A stretch of 60,352 nucleotides of DNA from Oscillospiraceae bacterium (lineage in GTDB: Bacteria; Bacillota; Clostridia; Oscillospirales; Oscillospiraceae): contig JAGBBD010000060.1 in assembly GCA_017938625.1 (NCBI GenBank), forward strand, positions 1 to 60,352, read 5' to 3'. The position numbers and the translations under genes were made by a program. Below, in pieces: positions 11,631 through 60,352 of this stretch. Position 1 is the stretch's first letter. Each line of letters begins with the position of its first letter. The notes below the pieces were generated by a model. That model did no database searches. It saw only the letters and a program-made list of their open reading frames with translations, and was not told the origin of the DNA.

Positions 11631-12524
11631 ATGAATTTGGAACTACTCAAGCAAAAAATGGACGAAGCCAATTATGTTTATGATGATACTTTGGCTGTGA
11701 CCTTGTCCGTGGCCCTGCAACTGGGAAGACCTCTGCTCATTGAGGGCGCGGCAGGCGTCGGCAAGACGGAGGTCGCCAAGGTCATGGCGCAGGCGCTGGA
11801 TCGGGAACTGGTGCGGCTGCAGTGCTATGAGGGGCTGGACGAAGGCAAGGCGCTGTATGAATGGAATTATCAGAAGCAGCTTTTGTCCATTCAGATCAAT
11901 ATGCAGGAGCAGGATAAGGATCAGCTGACCCAGAGTCTGTTTGGAGAAAGCTTTTTGCTGGAGCGCCCCCTGCTGAAGTCCATCCGCTCCGAAAAGCCCG
12001 TGGTGCTTCTGATTGATGAGATCGACAAGGCGGACGAGGAATTTGAAGCCTTCCTGCTGGAGCTTCTGTCTGAAATGCAGGTCTCCATCCCGGAGATCGG
12101 CACCATCGGCGCCAAGTCCGTGCCCTTTGTGGTGCTGACCTCCAACCGGGCAAGACCGTTGTCTGAAGCGCTGCGCCGCAGATGCGCATATCTGTATATC
12201 CAGTACCCCGATCTTGAGAAGGAGCTTGCCATTTTACGCAAAAAGCTTCCCCACATCGACGACCGTCTGGCAGGTCAGGTGGCAGTTGCCGTGCAGAAGC
12301 TCCGTGCCAGCGAGAGCATTCTGAAAAAGCCCTCCATCGCAGAAACATTGGACTGGGCGGCGGCGCTGGATGCTCTCGGCATCCGGGAACTGACCCCCGA
12401 CGCCATGCGGCAGACAGCCGGCTTTATTCTGAAAAACAACGAAGATATGCACGTTCTGGAAGAAGAGCCTGCTCCTCACGACTGCAATTGCGGTCACAAC
12501 TGCGGAGGCCACCACCATGGTTGA
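11631..12524 (+). CDS. MoxR/CoxD-type AAA+ ATPase
   Basis: This 297-residue cytosolic AAA+ ATPase has Walker A GAAGVGKT (39-46), Walker B LLIDEID (126-132), a sensor-1 region (VLTSNRARPLSEALRRRC) and the lid. MoxR proteins act as chaperones that insert metals or remodel complexes with a VWA-domain partner; the next gene encodes that partner and overlaps it by 8 bp. The tail is unusual: the last 15 residues (HDCNCGHNCGGHHHG) are almost all Cys, His and Gly, resembling a metal-binding tail. It is closest in look to the CoxD/CoxE pair of CO dehydrogenase maturation, but no such enzyme is in the window, so the client is unknown. Confidence 0.88.
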   Translation: MNLELLKQKMDEANYVYDDTLAVTLSVALQLGRPLLIEGAAGVGKTEVAKVMAQALDRELVRLQCYEGLDEGKALYEWNYQKQLLSIQINMQEQDKDQLTQSLFGESFLLERPLLKSIRSEKPVVLLIDEIDKADEEFEAFLLELLSEMQVSIPEIGTIGAKSVPFVVLTSNRARPLSEALRRRCAYLYIQYPDLEKELAILRKKLPHIDDRLAGQVAVAVQKLRASESILKKPSIAETLDWAAALDALGIRELTPDAMRQTAGFILKNNEDMHVLEEEPAPHDCNCGHNCGGHHHG

Positions 12525-13791
12525 TCCCGTGGTATATACGGAAAAGCTTTCCCTGTTTTCCAGAATGCTCCGGCTGGAAGGTCTTGCCGTAGGCCCGCAG
12601 GAAACTGCCGACGCCTGTCAGGTACTGCTAAACCTCGATCTGACAGACAAAGCCCTTGTCAAAGCAGGTCTTCGCACCGTGTTTGCCAAATCCCGGGAAG
12701 AGCAGACCACCTTTGACCGTGTGTTTGACGGCTTCTTTGTCAGTGAGGAGACCATGCGCAAGCAGGCCATGGAGCAGATGGCAAAACAGGCCCAGATGGA
12801 AGAGGGCCGCAGGCAGGCAGAGAAGGATCTGCAGTTTCAAGGGCAGCCCATGGATCTGCGTGAAGATCTGCGGGACGTCTATGCCGCCATGCCGGAGGAA
12901 GAGCGGCAGAAGCTGCGCAATATCATGGAAAAATACAAGGGCAATATAGAAAGAAGTCCGGAGCTATACGGCAATTTTATCCACTCCGTATTTGCAAGAG
13001 CGCTCATGGAGCACCAGATGCGTATGGAGGACGCTGCCATCGGCTGCGAGGAAGCAGACCCGGAGCTGGGTATGCTCTACCGTGATATCTCCCAGTTTAA
13101 GGATACGGAGATCCCAAAGGCTATCGTGCTGATTCAGTCCATTGCCCGGCAGATCAACGGAGAGCTTTCCTCCAAGGGGCAAAAGCGAAGTCACAGCGGC
13201 AAGCTGGACTTCCGCCGCACCATCCGCAAAGGACTGGAGACAGGCGGCAGCTTCTACCGGCTGAGCTTCAAGAAAAAACGCACACGCCGCAAGCGGCTGG
13301 TGCTGCTGTGCGACGTGTCAGGCTCCATGATGCAGTTTTCAGAATTCGCTCTGCGGTTTATGCAGGCATTAAACCAAGTGTCGGAAAGCTCCCGTGTGTT
13401 TTTATTCTCCGAGGATCTTTTTGAGGCAGATCCCTTCTCTTTGCAGAATATGGACCTGTTCCGCAATTATGTGCGTCAGTCCGGCTTGTACGGAAAGGGC
13501 ACGGATCTTGGCACAGCGCTGGAAAAGCTGTGCGCCATCCGCCCGGAGGTGCTCAACGCCTCCACCACGCTGCTGATCTTATCCGATTCCAAAACCATCG
13601 ATCTGCCCAGAGCCACCGCCGCCATGCTGGAAGCCAAGCACCGCAGCGGCAAAATGCTGTGGCTCAACCCCATCCCGGAACGAAAGTGGCAGTACCTCAG
13701 AAGCATCCAGACTGCCGCCACCATCTGCCGCATGCTCCCCTGCAGCACCTTGCAGGAGCTTGGTGAAGCCTGCCGCAGACTTGCAACATGA
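12517..13791 (+). CDS. CoxE-type VWA domain protein
   Basis: This 424-residue protein is the expected partner of the MoxR ATPase. The N-terminal half is mostly helical and includes a charged stretch (KQAMEQMAKQAQMEEGRRQA). The C-terminal half is a von Willebrand A domain with the metal-binding MIDAS motif DVSGS (266-270) and downstream residues KGTDLGTAL and LSDSKT. In known pairs the VWA protein ties the ATPase to its client enzyme. The start overlaps the MoxR gene; GGAGG lies inside that gene. The stop is directly followed by structured-element copy 1, which could end the transcript. Confidence 0.87.
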   Translation: MVDPVVYTEKLSLFSRMLRLEGLAVGPQETADACQVLLNLDLTDKALVKAGLRTVFAKSREEQTTFDRVFDGFFVSEETMRKQAMEQMAKQAQMEEGRRQAEKDLQFQGQPMDLREDLRDVYAAMPEEERQKLRNIMEKYKGNIERSPELYGNFIHSVFARALMEHQMRMEDAAIGCEEADPELGMLYRDISQFKDTEIPKAIVLIQSIARQINGELSSKGQKRSHSGKLDFRRTIRKGLETGGSFYRLSFKKKRTRRKRLVLLCDVSGSMMQFSEFALRFMQALNQVSESSRVFLFSEDLFEADPFSLQNMDLFRNYVRQSGLYGKGTDLGTALEKLCAIRPEVLNASTTLLILSDSKTIDLPRATAAMLEAKHRSGKMLWLNPIPERKWQYLRSIQTAATICRMLPCSTLQELGEACRRLAT

Positions 13792-13799
13792 TAAACAAC

Positions 13800-14028
13800 G
13801 AGAGCAGACAAAGCGGAGTCCAAATAAGAAAACATAGATTTTGCCCCACAGATGTCATCTGTGGGGCAAAACTGTTATCAGCCATTTAGGCAGGGATTTT
13901 TTGTCAGTTCAAGCTCATTTTTTGCAGCGATGCTTTGTGCATCGCAAGAAAAATGAGGGAAGAACCGGCGAAAAAGACCAACAAAAGGGGCTATGTTTTC
14001 TTATGAGGACGCAGCAAAGTCTGCTCTC
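13800..14028 (+). repeat. Dispersed structured element, copy 1
   Basis: This is one of two near-identical 209-nt elements (core 13810-14018; partner core 33132-33340; about ten differences by eye). The fold is clear. An outer stem GAGAGCAGAC/GTCTGCTCTC (13800-13809 with 14019-14028) and ATAAGAAAACATAG/CTATGTTTTCTTAT (13824-13837 with 13991-14004) close the element. Inside are a hairpin of TTTTGCCCCACAGA arms (13839-13871), and a 14-bp helix with G-U pairs (13897-13910 with 13962-13975) capped by a CTCATTTTT hairpin (13914-13957). It fills the gap between two convergent genes. It could be a structured RNA, a MITE-like mobile repeat or a complex bidirectional terminator. No coding sequence is evident. 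Confidence 0.85.
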
Positions 14029-14037
14029 ATTTTATGA

Positions 14038-15084
14038 TTACGGATACCGGGTAGTGACCGTAAAGCTGTAGAACTCCGGGTCTGTTCGATACATGACCCT
14101 GTTCCAGTGGACGGTGTCGTTGTAGTTGCCCTCCACCACAAGGATGCTGTCTTCATATTTTTCCAGAACCACCACCGTATGGCTGCCGGACTGGTCTCTG
14201 ACCATATCGCCGACCTTGATTCTGTCAAAGTCGGAATGCACCTCGGATATGGGAAGATCACCGAACACAAGGTCGCTGCAGTACAGGGCAAAGCCTGCAC
14301 AGCCTGCCCAAGTCAGCTGCAGAGCCTCGGAGTGATAGGACGAGTTGATTCCCCAGTAGGTACCCTCCGGGTAGGTATCTTCCAAGCTCCACAGGATCTG
14401 CACTGCAGTTTCCTGAGAAATATCTTCGTAGGCAGAGACATCCTCTGCTTCGCTGTCGGCTGCCTGCTCCTGCATGGCGCCGGTCACGACATAAGCACGA
14501 TAAAGGAACGTCACGATCTGACCGCGGGTGCAAATACCATCGGGGCTGAACTGCCCGTCTCCCGTGCCGTTGGTAATACCACACCGCACTGCCCACGAAA
14601 CAGCCGCGCTATAGGGTGCCATCGCAGGAACATCATAGAAAGAAGCCAGGCTTTCATAGGAAGAGCCTGCCAGTTTCCACAGATAGGTCACCACATCTGC
14701 ACGGGTGCAGGGTGCGTCGCCTGTAAAAAACTCGCCTCCAACCAATTCATTTTCATATGCCCATGTGGCTGCACTATAATAGTACACATCTGCGCTCACA
14801 TCATAAAAGGGGCAGTAGCCCTGCGGTGCAGGCTCTCCTGCAGCACGCCAGAGGAAGGTCAGAATCTGCGCTCTGGTGCAGGTATCATATGGTGAGAAGG
14901 TGGCGGCGCTTGTGCCGTTGGTGATGCCGTTGTTCACCGCCCAGGATACAGAAGACGCAAACCAATCGCTCTGGCCCACATCGGCAAAGGTACCGATCCC
15001 CACAGCCTGTGCCGTGATCGACAAAGACAAACTGCAAATCATAACCATAACCAGCAACGCTGACCACACTCTTTTTCCTGTCAC
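14038..15084 (-). CDS. SLH-domain protein with C-terminal cysteine-peptidase-like domain
   Basis: This 348-residue secreted protein has a signal peptide (about 1-28) and three S-layer homology repeats (about 30-80, 88-140, 148-200), each with an ITNGT/FSP-type core, so it should bind secondary wall polymer. After a linker, the C-terminal 120 residues contain a Cys (GCAGFALYC), a His (SGSHTVVVLEK) and a following polar residue, the order expected of CHAP/NlpC-like papain-fold domains. Peptidoglycan hydrolysis is a reasonable guess; the domain is divergent and could be inactive. The start is a GTG 6-7 nt after AGAGG. It has its own promoter and converges on the CoxE gene. Confidence 0.8.
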   Translation of the reverse strand: MTGKRVWSALLVMVMICSLSLSITAQAVGIGTFADVGQSDWFASSVSWAVNNGITNGTSAATFSPYDTCTRAQILTFLWRAAGEPAPQGYCPFYDVSADVYYYSAATWAYENELVGGEFFTGDAPCTRADVVTYLWKLAGSSYESLASFYDVPAMAPYSAAVSWAVRCGITNGTGDGQFSPDGICTRGQIVTFLYRAYVVTGAMQEQAADSEAEDVSAYEDISQETAVQILWSLEDTYPEGTYWGINSSYHSEALQLTWAGCAGFALYCSDLVFGDLPISEVHSDFDRIKVGDMVRDQSGSHTVVVLEKYEDSILVVEGNYNDTVHWNRVMYRTDPEFYSFTVTTRYP

Positions 15085-31755: not shown

Positions 31756-32250
31756 ATGCTCTACGCTTTTCTGGCTGTTTTTGCCGTTTTGATCGTCATC
31801 GCCGATCAGATCACAAAGTATCTGACCGTTGCCAATATCCCCCTTCATGAGATCATCCCCGTGTGGGACGGTGTGTTCCATCTGACCTATCTGCGCAACA
31901 CCGGCATGGCTTTTTCTCTTCTGGAGGGCGGCAGGTGGTTTTTCCTCGTTCTGACCGCTGCGGCGCTTGCCCTAATGGTATTGGCTGTTGTAAAAAAGTG
32001 GATCGACCATCCCGTGGGGCTGTGGTCTCTTGCCGCCATTGCCGGCGGCGCTGTGGGCAATCTTATTGACCGTGTGTCCCTTGGCTATGTGATCGACATG
32101 ATCGAGGTGGAGTTCATCCGCTTCCCCGTGTTCAACGTGGCAGACAGCTTTGTGGTCTGCGGTGCCATCGGCCTTGTGATCTATACTTTTTTCTTTGATA
32201 AACCCAAGAAGGAGAACGCAGATGAGACTGACACTGGACCGATCGGGTGA
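31756..32250 (+). CDS. lspA: Lipoprotein signal peptidase
   Basis: This 164-residue membrane peptidase has four membrane segments and the LspA motifs: DQITK, NTGMAF, GNLIDR and FNVADSF. The catalytic aspartates by homology are Asp114 and Asp130. It cleaves prolipoproteins such as the several lipoproteins encoded here. ATG 31756 follows GGGAGG by 6 nt. It overlaps rluD by 29 bp. Confidence 0.95.
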   Translation: MLYAFLAVFAVLIVIADQITKYLTVANIPLHEIIPVWDGVFHLTYLRNTGMAFSLLEGGRWFFLVLTAAALALMVLAVVKKWIDHPVGLWSLAAIAGGAVGNLIDRVSLGYVIDMIEVEFIRFPVFNVADSFVVCGAIGLVIYTFFFDKPKKENADETDTGPIG

Positions 32251-33124
32251 GCGCGCCGACGCGGCGCTTGCAAGACTTTGCCCGGAGCTTTCCAGAAGCG
32301 CTGCCCAGAAACTGCTGGAGCAGGGCGCCGTTCTGCGCAACGCAGCTGTCTGCAAAAAGAACGAAAAGCTTCTGGAAGGCGATGTGCTGGAATTGGAACT
32401 GCCCCAAGTGCAGGAGGTCAGCATCGAAGCAGAGGACATTGCGCTGGACATCGTCTATGAGGACGAAGATGTGATCGTTATCAACAAGCCCAAGGGGCTG
32501 GTCGTCCACCCTGCTGCCGGTCATTGGTCCGGTACTTTGGTCAATGCTTTGATGTACCACTGCAAGGACTCCCTTTCCGGCATCAACGGGGAACTCCGTC
32601 CCGGCATTGTCCATCGCATCGATATGGACACTTCGGGCCTTCTGATCGTTGCCAAAAATGACTTTGCCCATCAGAGCCTTGCTGCCCAGCTGCAGGATCA
32701 CACCCTTGCCCGAACCTACGAGTGTATCGTCTGCGGCGGCATCCGGGAGGACAGCGGCACGATCGATGCCCCCATCGGCAGACACCCTGCCGATCGCAAA
32801 AAAATGGCAGTCACAGAAAAAAACAGCCGCAGCGCCGTGACCCATTGGCAGGTCTTGGAGCGCTTCGACCGTTATACGAGAGTACAGTGCAAACTGGAAA
32901 CCGGCCGCACCCATCAGATCCGTGTCCACATGGCATGGCGCAACCACCCCATTCTGGGCGACATGGTCTACGGGCACAAAAAGCCGGAACTTGGGATGGA
33001 CACCCAGTGTCTGCACGCAAGAGAACTGACCTTCCTGCATCCGAGAAGCGGCGAGCCCACTACGGTGACCTGTCCCCTGCCGGACTATTTTGAAGAAGTT
33101 CTGCGAAAATTAAGACAAAAATGA
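32222..33124 (+). CDS. rluD: RluD-type 23S rRNA pseudouridine synthase
   Basis: This 300-residue enzyme has an N-terminal S4 RNA-binding domain (SRSAAQKLLEQGAV) and a pseudouridine synthase core with HRIDMDTSGLLIVAK, whose Asp is the catalytic residue, and GRTHQIRVH. It modifies 23S rRNA uridines; the RluD assignment against RluC/RsuA-family relatives rests on overall length and motif. ATG 32222 follows AAGGAGAA inside lspA. Its stop lies in the outer stem of structured-element copy 2. Confidence 0.92.
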   Translation: MRLTLDRSGERADAALARLCPELSRSAAQKLLEQGAVLRNAAVCKKNEKLLEGDVLELELPQVQEVSIEAEDIALDIVYEDEDVIVINKPKGLVVHPAAGHWSGTLVNALMYHCKDSLSGINGELRPGIVHRIDMDTSGLLIVAKNDFAHQSLAAQLQDHTLARTYECIVCGGIREDSGTIDAPIGRHPADRKKMAVTEKNSRSAVTHWQVLERFDRYTRVQCKLETGRTHQIRVHMAWRNHPILGDMVYGHKKPELGMDTQCLHARELTFLHPRSGEPTTVTCPLPDYFEEVLRKLRQK

Positions 33125-33354
33125 GAGAGCTAAAGCGGAGTCTGAATAAGAAAACATAGATTTTGCCCCACAGAGGTTATCTGTGGGGCAAAACTGTTAT
33201 CAGCCATTTTGGCAGGGATTTTCCGTCGGTTCAAGCTCATTTTTTGCAGCGATGCTTTGTGCATCGCAAGAAAAATGAGGGAAGAACTGGCGAAAAAGAC
33301 CAACAAAAGGGGCTATGTTTTCTTATGAGGACGTAGCAAACGCTCTCTCATTTT
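33118..33354 (+). repeat. Dispersed structured element, copy 2
   Basis: This second copy has a 209-nt core (33132-33340) matching copy 1 at all but about ten positions. Its outer stem is different in sequence but again paired: AAAATGAGAGAGC (33118-33130) with GCTCTCTCATTTT (33342-33354), flanked by A- and T-runs. The helix at 33146-33159 with 33313-33326 and the hairpin 33161-33193 match copy 1. The helix 33219-33232 with 33284-33297 has changed bases that mostly stay paired. It fills the gap between rluD (+) and the CarD gene (-). Confidence 0.85.
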
Positions 33355-33854
33355 ATTTTATCTGCTATATAGGCTGAAACTTCACTCTGGGAGATCTGCA
33401 GAGAATAGGCAAATTCCTCGCCCACGATGCGTTCGGCGGAAGCCAGCAGCTTTTCATCGGTGGTGCAGAACTTTTTACCTTCCCGCAGACGCTCCTGCTT
33501 TTGCACATACAGGCAGCCGATCAGCTTCAGAAGTTCTGCCGTGATACCCTTGGCAATGATCTGACCGAAAGCATCGGCTCTGTGCCTCGTGTCTTCGATC
33601 CATTCCAGCTTTTCATCCTTCACAGAGCAGATCAGATCATCGATCTGCATCTGCGTCAGTACCGGACGCATTTTCGCCGTCAGTGCTTCATTGGCAGTTG
33701 GCACATAGGTGATACAGGTGGGCGATGCAGCCGGACGCAGCAGATAGTATTCCTGCTTGTTGGTGCCTGTCCGGGACAAAGACATGACTCTGATATCCTC
33801 AATGGTACAAATACCTGTGGCACCGTAAGATACAACTTCACCGACTTGGAACAT
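33348..33854 (-). CDS. CarD family transcriptional regulator
   Basis: This 168-residue protein has the CarD/CdnL/TRCF RNA-polymerase-interaction domain at its N-terminus (FQVGEVVSYGATGICTIEDI) and a helical C-terminal half. CarD proteins bind the beta subunit near its N-terminus and stabilise promoter opening at rRNA and other promoters. Monocistronic with its own promoter. Its stop overlaps the outer stem of structured-element copy 2. Confidence 0.9.
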   Translation of the reverse strand: MFQVGEVVSYGATGICTIEDIRVMSLSRTGTNKQEYYLLRPAASPTCITYVPTANEALTAKMRPVLTQMQIDDLICSVKDEKLEWIEDTRHRADAFGQIIAKGITAELLKLIGCLYVQKQERLREGKKFCTTDEKLLASAERIVGEEFAYSLQISQSEVSAYIADKIK

Positions 33855-60188: not shown

Positions 60189-60264
<76 letters not shown>

Positions 60265-60295
60265 ATATTTATCTCAAGCCTTCCGGCCTATTTAC

Positions 60296-60352
60296 TGGTG
60301 GGCCTTCAGGGACTCGAACCCGGGACTATCCGGTTATGAGCCGGATGCTCTA
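60296..60352 (-). tRNA. tRNA-Met (anticodon CAT), partial
   Basis: The 3' part of a tRNA with encoded CCA, discriminator A, T-arm GGGTTCGAGTCCC and anticodon loop CTCATAA (CAT). The 5' part lies beyond the window edge. The GGCCC acceptor arm fits elongator tRNA-Met. Elongator type is inferred; CAT could also be a modified tRNA-Ile. Confidence 0.9.

Follow-up and report, generated by a model that had tools for sequence, protein, structure and literature searches.

Short non-autonomous repeats of the MITE type are already known from bacteria, Correia/NEMIS being one of them, and group IIC introns insert adjacent to, and downstream of, terminator stem-loops. Other bacterial MITEs, such as BOX/RUP/SPRITE and ERIC, are described as short, non-coding, multi-copy and intergenic, with inverted ends and long hairpins (PMC10969869). 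For IS30, 2-bp direct repeats and nearly palindromic hot spots are reported, with insertion at the central 2 bp of such a site (PMC9333248). REP elements are given as palindromes of 20-40 bp with the tag GTAG/CGTC (PMC3733652), and for IS elements located in REP palindromes, as well as for the REP/TnpA-REP systems, mobility is described as tied to extragenic palindromes (PMC1525189, PMC8266576).

Here we analyse a stretch of 60,352 nt from an Oscillospiraceae bacterium (the window), which holds two copies of a structured repeat that we call class I. We consider it likely that class I is a non-autonomous, MITE-like mobile element that inserts into the loops of intrinsic terminators and leaves the terminator arms as its flanks. 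This reading is drawn from genomic sequence: the copies are dispersed and group by genome, their ends are inverted, most of them have a 2-nt bracket and a terminator-like hairpin around them, one empty site was found, and the fold covaries. Its likeness to the bacterial MITEs is evident, but terminator-loop insertion is not mentioned for them in the available part of the 2024 review (PMC10969869); furthermore, the interior of class I is a covarying multi-helix fold with one hairpin that occurs class-wide, and no parent IS was identified. With the IS30 family it shares a near-palindromic target and the 2-nt bracket (PMC9333248), whereas it shows an orientation bias with respect to the central dinucleotide, no transposase was recognised near its copies and the target stems share no sequence. 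As in the REP-associated systems mobility would be linked to extragenic palindromes, but the targets of class I are unique terminators and not a repeat family, and its size is about 205 nt instead of the 20-40 bp given for REP. Membership in the REP elements (tagged palindromes with a Y1 transposase) was ruled out because size and architecture differ. Like the group IIC introns, class I would combine a structured RNA with terminator-associated insertion, but in the loop rather than downstream. A group IIC intron was ruled out as no Rfam group II match was found in the loci scanned, and no reverse transcriptase occurs among the 25 most frequent of 70 Pfam families near class I copies. What is new, therefore, is not the non-autonomous repeat as such but the terminator-loop specificity and the class-wide hairpin. 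A search of the open-access literature, whose scope makes it weak evidence of absence, found no description of a terminator-loop MITE or of this hairpin, P5.

Two copies in the window and their covarying fold

The cores of the two copies (13810-14018 and 33132-33340) are both 209 nt long and differ by direct alignment at exactly 10 positions, where the first-pass annotation had counted about ten by eye. Across approximately 240 nt the copies are 93% identical. Their folding energies are -115.4 kcal/mol for copy 1 and -119.3 kcal/mol for copy 2 (z = -13.8 and -13.2), and in neither case was any of 200 shuffles as stable. The substitutions had been said to keep the helices paired. This is correct for the two quoted examples, the U-G pair of copy 1 that is C-G in copy 2 (13902/33224) and the A-C mismatch that becomes G-U (13906/33228 with 13966/33288), but not for an overlooked third one, 13901/33223, where U-A turns into a C-A mismatch (column pair 95-167). 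The outer stems are indeed specific for each copy and self-complementary, with GAGAGCAGAC pairing to GTCTGCTCTC and ATGAGAGAGC to GCTCTCTCAT. Their arms are A-rich on the 5' side and U-rich on the 3' side, like a bidirectional intrinsic terminator, and in copy 2 each arm contains the stop codon of one neighbouring gene (Table 1).

Table 1. Positions of both class I copies, their helices, flanking arms and neighbouring genes in the window
Feature	Position	Strand	Remark
CoxE-like VWA protein gene, left of copy 1	12517..13791	+	
Putative 5' arm of host terminator hairpin split by copy 1 (GAGAGCAGAC)	13800..13809	.	pairs with 14019-14028; copy-specific
Copy 1 of class I element (AGCGGAG...GGACGCAGCA)	13812..14016	+	AA brackets at 13810-13811, 14017-14018
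P2 5' arm (ATAAGAAAACATAG), conserved closing helix	13824..13837	+	pairs with 13991-14004
P3 hairpin (TTTTGCCCCACAGA...TCTGTGGGGCAAA)	13839..13871	+	sequence varies between genera, pairing kept
P4 small hairpin (CUGUUAUCAG)	13872..13881	+	alignment fold
P5 long hairpin with conserved apical domain, copy 1	13882..13990	+	model R2 match
P2 3' arm (CTATGTTTTCTTAT)	13991..14004	+	
Putative 3' arm (GTCTGCTCTC) and U-rich tail of terminator split by copy 1	14019..14035	.	
SLH-domain protein gene, right of copy 1	14038..15084	-	convergent
RNA pseudouridine synthase gene, left of copy 2	32195..33124	+	
Putative 5' arm of terminator split by copy 2 (ATGAGAGAGC)	33121..33130	.	overlaps stop codon of gene 32195-33124; plain terminator at orthologous G002 locus
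Copy 2 of class I element	33134..33338	+	AA brackets at 33132-33133, 33339-33340
P5 apical-domain hairpin, copy 2	33204..33312	+	R2 match E 1.1e-22; copy 2 among the 50 source sequences of R2
Putative 3' arm (GCTCTCTCAT, 33342-33351) and U-rich tail, copy 2	33342..33358	.	overlaps stop codon of - strand gene 33348-33854
CarD-like regulator gene, right of copy 2	33348..33854	-	convergent

In an alignment of 12 full-length sequences 96.9% of the cells are paired and 33 of 74 pairs show double-sided changes, a number reached by none of 500 shuffles and by no slid structure, though these counts, like those for P5, are inflated by the kinship of the sequences and the structures were taken from the same alignments. 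The covariation of the full element is 0.431, while shuffles give 0.157 and no slid structure exceeds 0.105; a weaker measure, further pair types, was matched by 7 of 500 shuffles. For P5 alone, examined in a set of 50 sequences that began from model matches, the values are higher: 94.0% paired cells, double changes in 32 of 33 pairs and a covariation of 0.802 (0.216 in shuffles, at most 0.187 in slid structures). As judged from these alignments, the fold covaries strongly and has been conserved among many related bacteria. There are 156 G-U against 17 A-C cells in P5 and 45 against 7 in the full element, which indicates that one of the two strands is the folding one. This strand may be RNA or single-stranded DNA, since in the latter G-T is likewise favoured over A-C and both are compatible with the excess.

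Occurrence of class I and of the P5 hairpin

The source genome (G000) contains three full copies, the third on contig C48, together with a variant on C31 and a partial copy on C6. In the variant (G000:C31:26659-26799; L021:960-1100) P5 is replaced by a plain GAGGCGGTT...AACCGCC hairpin, with a unique outer stem kept, which shows that the interior of the element is modular. Solitary P3-like hairpins (TTTGCCCCACAG...CTGTGGGGCAAA) occur at three further sites of this genome (L023 C47:11135-11219, L024 C45:4481-4524 and L025 C63:56242-56281); P3 itself may be a dispersed repeat or a favourite terminator.

A DNA search of the seven other genomes of the genus found the element in none of them, and a covariance model made from the 12 full-length copies (R1) gave weaker score matches there, one in G001 and two in G002. 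At the level of the family, 8 of 400 genomes, the source included, had a DNA match: relatives of about 70-74% identity in four others, among which G146 and G069 match nearly the whole query, and matches of just 26-29 nt in the remaining three. Related copies are present in genera other than that of the source. Two more copies were found in Oscillospiraceae bacterium RGIG4623, and with R1 at least eight full copies in G468 and at least three, one of them shortened, in G436. Copies thus exist outside the source genome and their pairs covary, so that neither of the outcomes named by the first-pass annotation as refuting it was observed. Throughout, class I is short (about 205-290 nt), non-coding, dispersed and multi-copy. 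In genome G249 a pattern for the P2 arm yielded 61 forward and 62 reverse matches, against 16 and 5 in the control, corresponding to about 50 copies (matches less control, two per copy); many contigs of this genome end within the element.

A tree was built from 28 class I copies, the other two of the 30 being shorter than 181 nt. Each genome's copies fall together in it, those of G154 beside those of the same-genus G289, with 8 of the 25 inner forks under 80% support. Such a grouping by genome is, as read from the tree, the mark of spread within lineages. Some loci hold minimal elements with little beyond the two ends, namely L188 (G249:C5), L189 (G249:C20) and L258 (G843:C1:1155559-1155621); L189 nevertheless lies within a terminator-like hairpin. 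In a divergent relative (L073:1501-1777, G300:C42) the place of P3 is apparently taken by another P5-like domain, which lies on the opposite strand.

P5 reaches much further than class I. R1 gives scores in 157 of 400 family and 57 of 295 order genomes, and in nine inspected matches, seven of them from the weaker group, as in most of 72 that were aligned, the P5 motif is found with variations inside other ends. It reads C(A/G)AGGC-(about 8 bp)-CGCAG-NNN-UAC-UU(U/G)GU-GUA-NNN-CAAG-(about 8 bp)-AACG, and its internal loops are conserved in sequence as well as in shape. A covariance model of P5 from 50 sequences (R2) scores in 93 of 391 sampled genomes of the class and in 22 of 398 of the phylum, where the two samples overlap, the source genome is in both and the phylum figures are model scores. 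Outside its class I copies the source genome has five more R2 matches (C60, C62, C63, C35 and, weaker, C65). Compared in G053, G281, G038 and G177, these repeats with P5 inside other ends, here called class II, are about 160 nt long, have abrupt ends and are mostly alike within a genome. A TA target duplication was suspected for class II and dropped because it is inconsistent in G843. At L228 (G952:C17:49681-49904) and L229 (G897:C15:31556-31780) two inverted P5 domains lie inside one long inverted repeat. Beside genes P5 has no sense bias: among the 30 of 50 class II loci with resolved neighbours, both genes are antisense in 13, both sense in 9, convergent in 7 and divergent in 1. At L248 (G843:C1 near 3238477) a solo class II end immediately precedes an apparent start codon, a possible case of co-option as a leader. 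Since the C31 variant lacks the apical domain of P5 and two G249 copies are reduced to their ends, P5 appears dispensable for the persistence of some copies.

The first-pass annotation recognised no named family, which holds as far as Rfam (release 15) goes: the window has no match at gathering score except to tRNAs, two genes for which lie on the - strand at its end (60192-60352, one of them cut). At E values up to 10, eight class I loci gave two matches, both far below gathering; one is a weak match to mir-299 over the left part of the element in L044 (20.8 bits, gathering 67). Another ten loci, in which P5 lies outside class I, yielded 12 matches, all below gathering and none over the element. 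Membership in an Rfam family was ruled out because no match over the element reaches the gathering score in the loci scanned. Nor was a transposase or recombinase recognised near the copies, among the 25 most frequent of 70 Pfam families in 96 ORFs of at least 150 aa from 45 class I loci; of these most frequent families none recurs in more than three ORFs. ORF clusters present at three or more loci, inspected by eye across up to 183 loci, contained no shared transposase; the largest of them, with members from 11 loci, resembles an ABC-F ATPase. As a trace of an autonomous partner, a pair of ends 1-3 kb apart was sought and not found in 15 stretches of G249 and G000. The end pattern of G843, a single-contig class II genome with 11% contamination, likewise gave none at this distance, but pairs spaced by about 160 bp, one pair with a spacing of about 60 bp, and solo ends (13 of 14 stretches). 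Because no such enzyme was recognised near the copies, we infer mobility from their distribution. Phage records had no match to a window copy, and plasmid records none to one G249 and one G038 element. In viral contigs the class I end patterns had no match and two P5 pattern searches gave two and none, both matches located at contig ends.

Ends, flanks and the empty site

In G249 the ends of the element are near-perfect inverted repeats (AGGGTGTACCCGATAAGAAAACATAAG), and G468 has the inverted ends AGGCAGTTCC/GGAACTGCCT; in the window copies their outer 10 nt are imperfect. AA stands on both sides of the core in 22 of 28 class I copies. On the P3 side in G249, TT precedes the inverted end (AGGGTGTACCCG...) in 33 of 43 cases (AA 5, CT 3, AT 2), and at the P5-side ends AA is found in 29 of 32 (TT 2, AT 1), so that read in one orientation the bracket is mostly TT/TT. 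The orientation relative to the AA/TT dinucleotide is therefore largely fixed and strongly biased. A symmetric transposon in a palindrome would insert both ways equally, hence the bias indicates that something asymmetric is recognised. Rather than being a duplication, the AA bracket may belong to the element itself.

Outside the core, the 30 copies compared each have a sequence of their own, yet in most of them the left flank pairs with the right one. For 28 of these 30 (G069_131 and G154_43, cut by contig ends, were left out) the mean duplex energy of a copy's own flanks is -19.4 kcal/mol, compared to -8.9 kcal/mol when flanks are swapped between copies. For 17 copies of G249 the respective values are -19.0 and -7.8 kcal/mol. 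The medians are -20.65 kcal/mol for class I (n=28), -20.7 for G249 (n=17) and -6.0 for class II (n=47), the boundaries of the latter being approximate. The 1% level of the swapped-flank control was passed by 17 of 28 class I and 13 of 17 G249 copies and missed by the other 11 and 4; the best swapped pairs reach -27.6 (class I) and -17.9 kcal/mol (G249). Almost no flanking stem is present in c48 (-5.9), G146_42 (-4.8) and the G249 copies L182 (-5.9), L187 (-6.3) and L188 (-4.7 kcal/mol), and in some further copies the outer stem is disturbed by extra sequence. An A-rich tract (at least 5 A per 8 nt within the 24-nt flank) occurs at 69 of 75 G249 ends, as a raw count uncorrected for base composition. 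Class I prefers gene ends: of 47 sites, 30 could be resolved by a composition-based heuristic for gene orientation (17 could not), and these comprise 18 convergent, 11 same-strand and one divergent. For class II the corresponding numbers are 7, 21 and 2 (30 resolved of 46).

One clean empty site was found, for copy 2 in G002. There, on contig C14, both neighbours of copy 2 are present and the plain hairpin ATGAGAGCATCG-TAA-CGATGCTCTCAT, with a T-run after it, stands between them; the outer half of this terminator is identical to the copy-2 arms in the window. The other six genomes of the genus yielded no locus with the two genes adjacent. A syntenic empty site for copy 1 did not turn up in the same-genus genomes; plain hairpins lie downstream of the counterpart of its left gene in G006 and G002. 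From flank statistics and this one site, the variable outer stems are probably the arms of ordinary intrinsic terminators between convergent genes, with the element in their loop. The original suggestion of a functional RNA fold or a hairpin-ended mobile element fits in both halves, given the strong covariation on one side and dispersed, lineage-amplified copies with inverted ends on the other. Its assignment of the outer stem to the element does not, as a host terminator hairpin fits better.

Possible origins and meaning

According to the explanation we favour, a class I element would be moved by an enzyme supplied in trans. After insertion, the closing helices P1/P2 would rejoin the split arms, which would keep the terminator working and make the insertion almost harmless; the fold would be under selection because the folded insert preserves termination. 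P5 would form a recognition module of its own, read most likely by the mobilising machinery. The largely fixed AA/TT orientation together with the lack of a sense bias of P5 suggests recognition at the level of one DNA or RNA strand and not a role in the neighbouring mRNA. One may go further and suppose that P5 marks an undescribed system in which a structured single strand is read via its mirror-image loops (CAAG/CGCAG) and inserted, one strand in one orientation, into a hairpin loop, with one branch using terminator loops as safe harbours and others having spread, as repeats flanked by TA or AA, across Clostridia and its relatives within the phylum; in this full extent we hold the idea to be doubtful.

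A different mechanism for the same mobility, and one whose probability overlaps with that of our explanation because the two differ in mechanism only, is an IS30-type, palindrome-targeting transposase that moves the element as double-stranded DNA, so that terminators are hit merely as palindromes and the RNA fold is irrelevant to mobility. The inverted ends, the 2-nt bracket and the palindromic targets agree with it, as IS30 is reported to make 2-bp repeats in nearly palindromic hot spots (PMC9333248). Symmetric ends in a symmetric target, however, predict random orientation where a strong bias is observed, and the sharing of P5 with class II is left unexplained; we therefore regard it as somewhat unlikely. 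That the repeats are domesticated and have been retained because they serve the flanking genes, either as bidirectional terminators or as stabilisers of 3' ends, is improbable. Indeed, convergent genes flank 18 of 30 resolved class I sites and both window copies, and on the minus strand P3 together with the CTATGTTTTC that follows it has the look of a terminator, although one such site is about what chance would give. But a plain terminator suffices at the empty site, the DNA search found the element in none of seven other same-genus genomes, and G249 alone has about 50 copies.

Strong covariation, the preference for G-U pairs on one strand and the highly conserved unpaired motifs of P5 would all be expected for a multi-copy structured RNA gene, acting in trans and ending in an outer stem as its own terminator. 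Since the core begins 18 nt (copy 1) and 7 nt (copy 2) after the upstream stop codon, there is no intergenic room for a promoter at either copy, and no sense-strand promoter-like site (sigma-70 consensus only) was seen. The outer stems are unrelated between copies of one genome and the empty site holds a complete plain terminator, which makes such a gene quite improbable. Finally, the covariation could be a by-product of palindrome correction and not of selection on the fold, for every helix is an inverted repeat, and arm-to-arm correction by template switching can occur in inverted repeats. Such a process should remove mismatches, whereas the loops CAAGG/AACGCAG and CGCAG/CAAG are retained in varied form at the family, order and class level, and in P5 G-U exceeds A-C ninefold, so that we consider this origin most improbable.

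For RNA discovery, the case carries a caution: where a conserved core is framed by outer stems that vary, these may be the arms of split host terminators and not covarying RNA helices. P5, which matched no Rfam family in the loci scanned, scores in 93 of 391 sampled class and 22 of 398 sampled phylum genomes, so that there may be an enzyme or binding protein which recognises it and which could be sought by co-occurrence. Terminator loops in general would offer mobile DNA a safe harbour if, as we propose, folding of the insert is what keeps the stop signal of the host intact.
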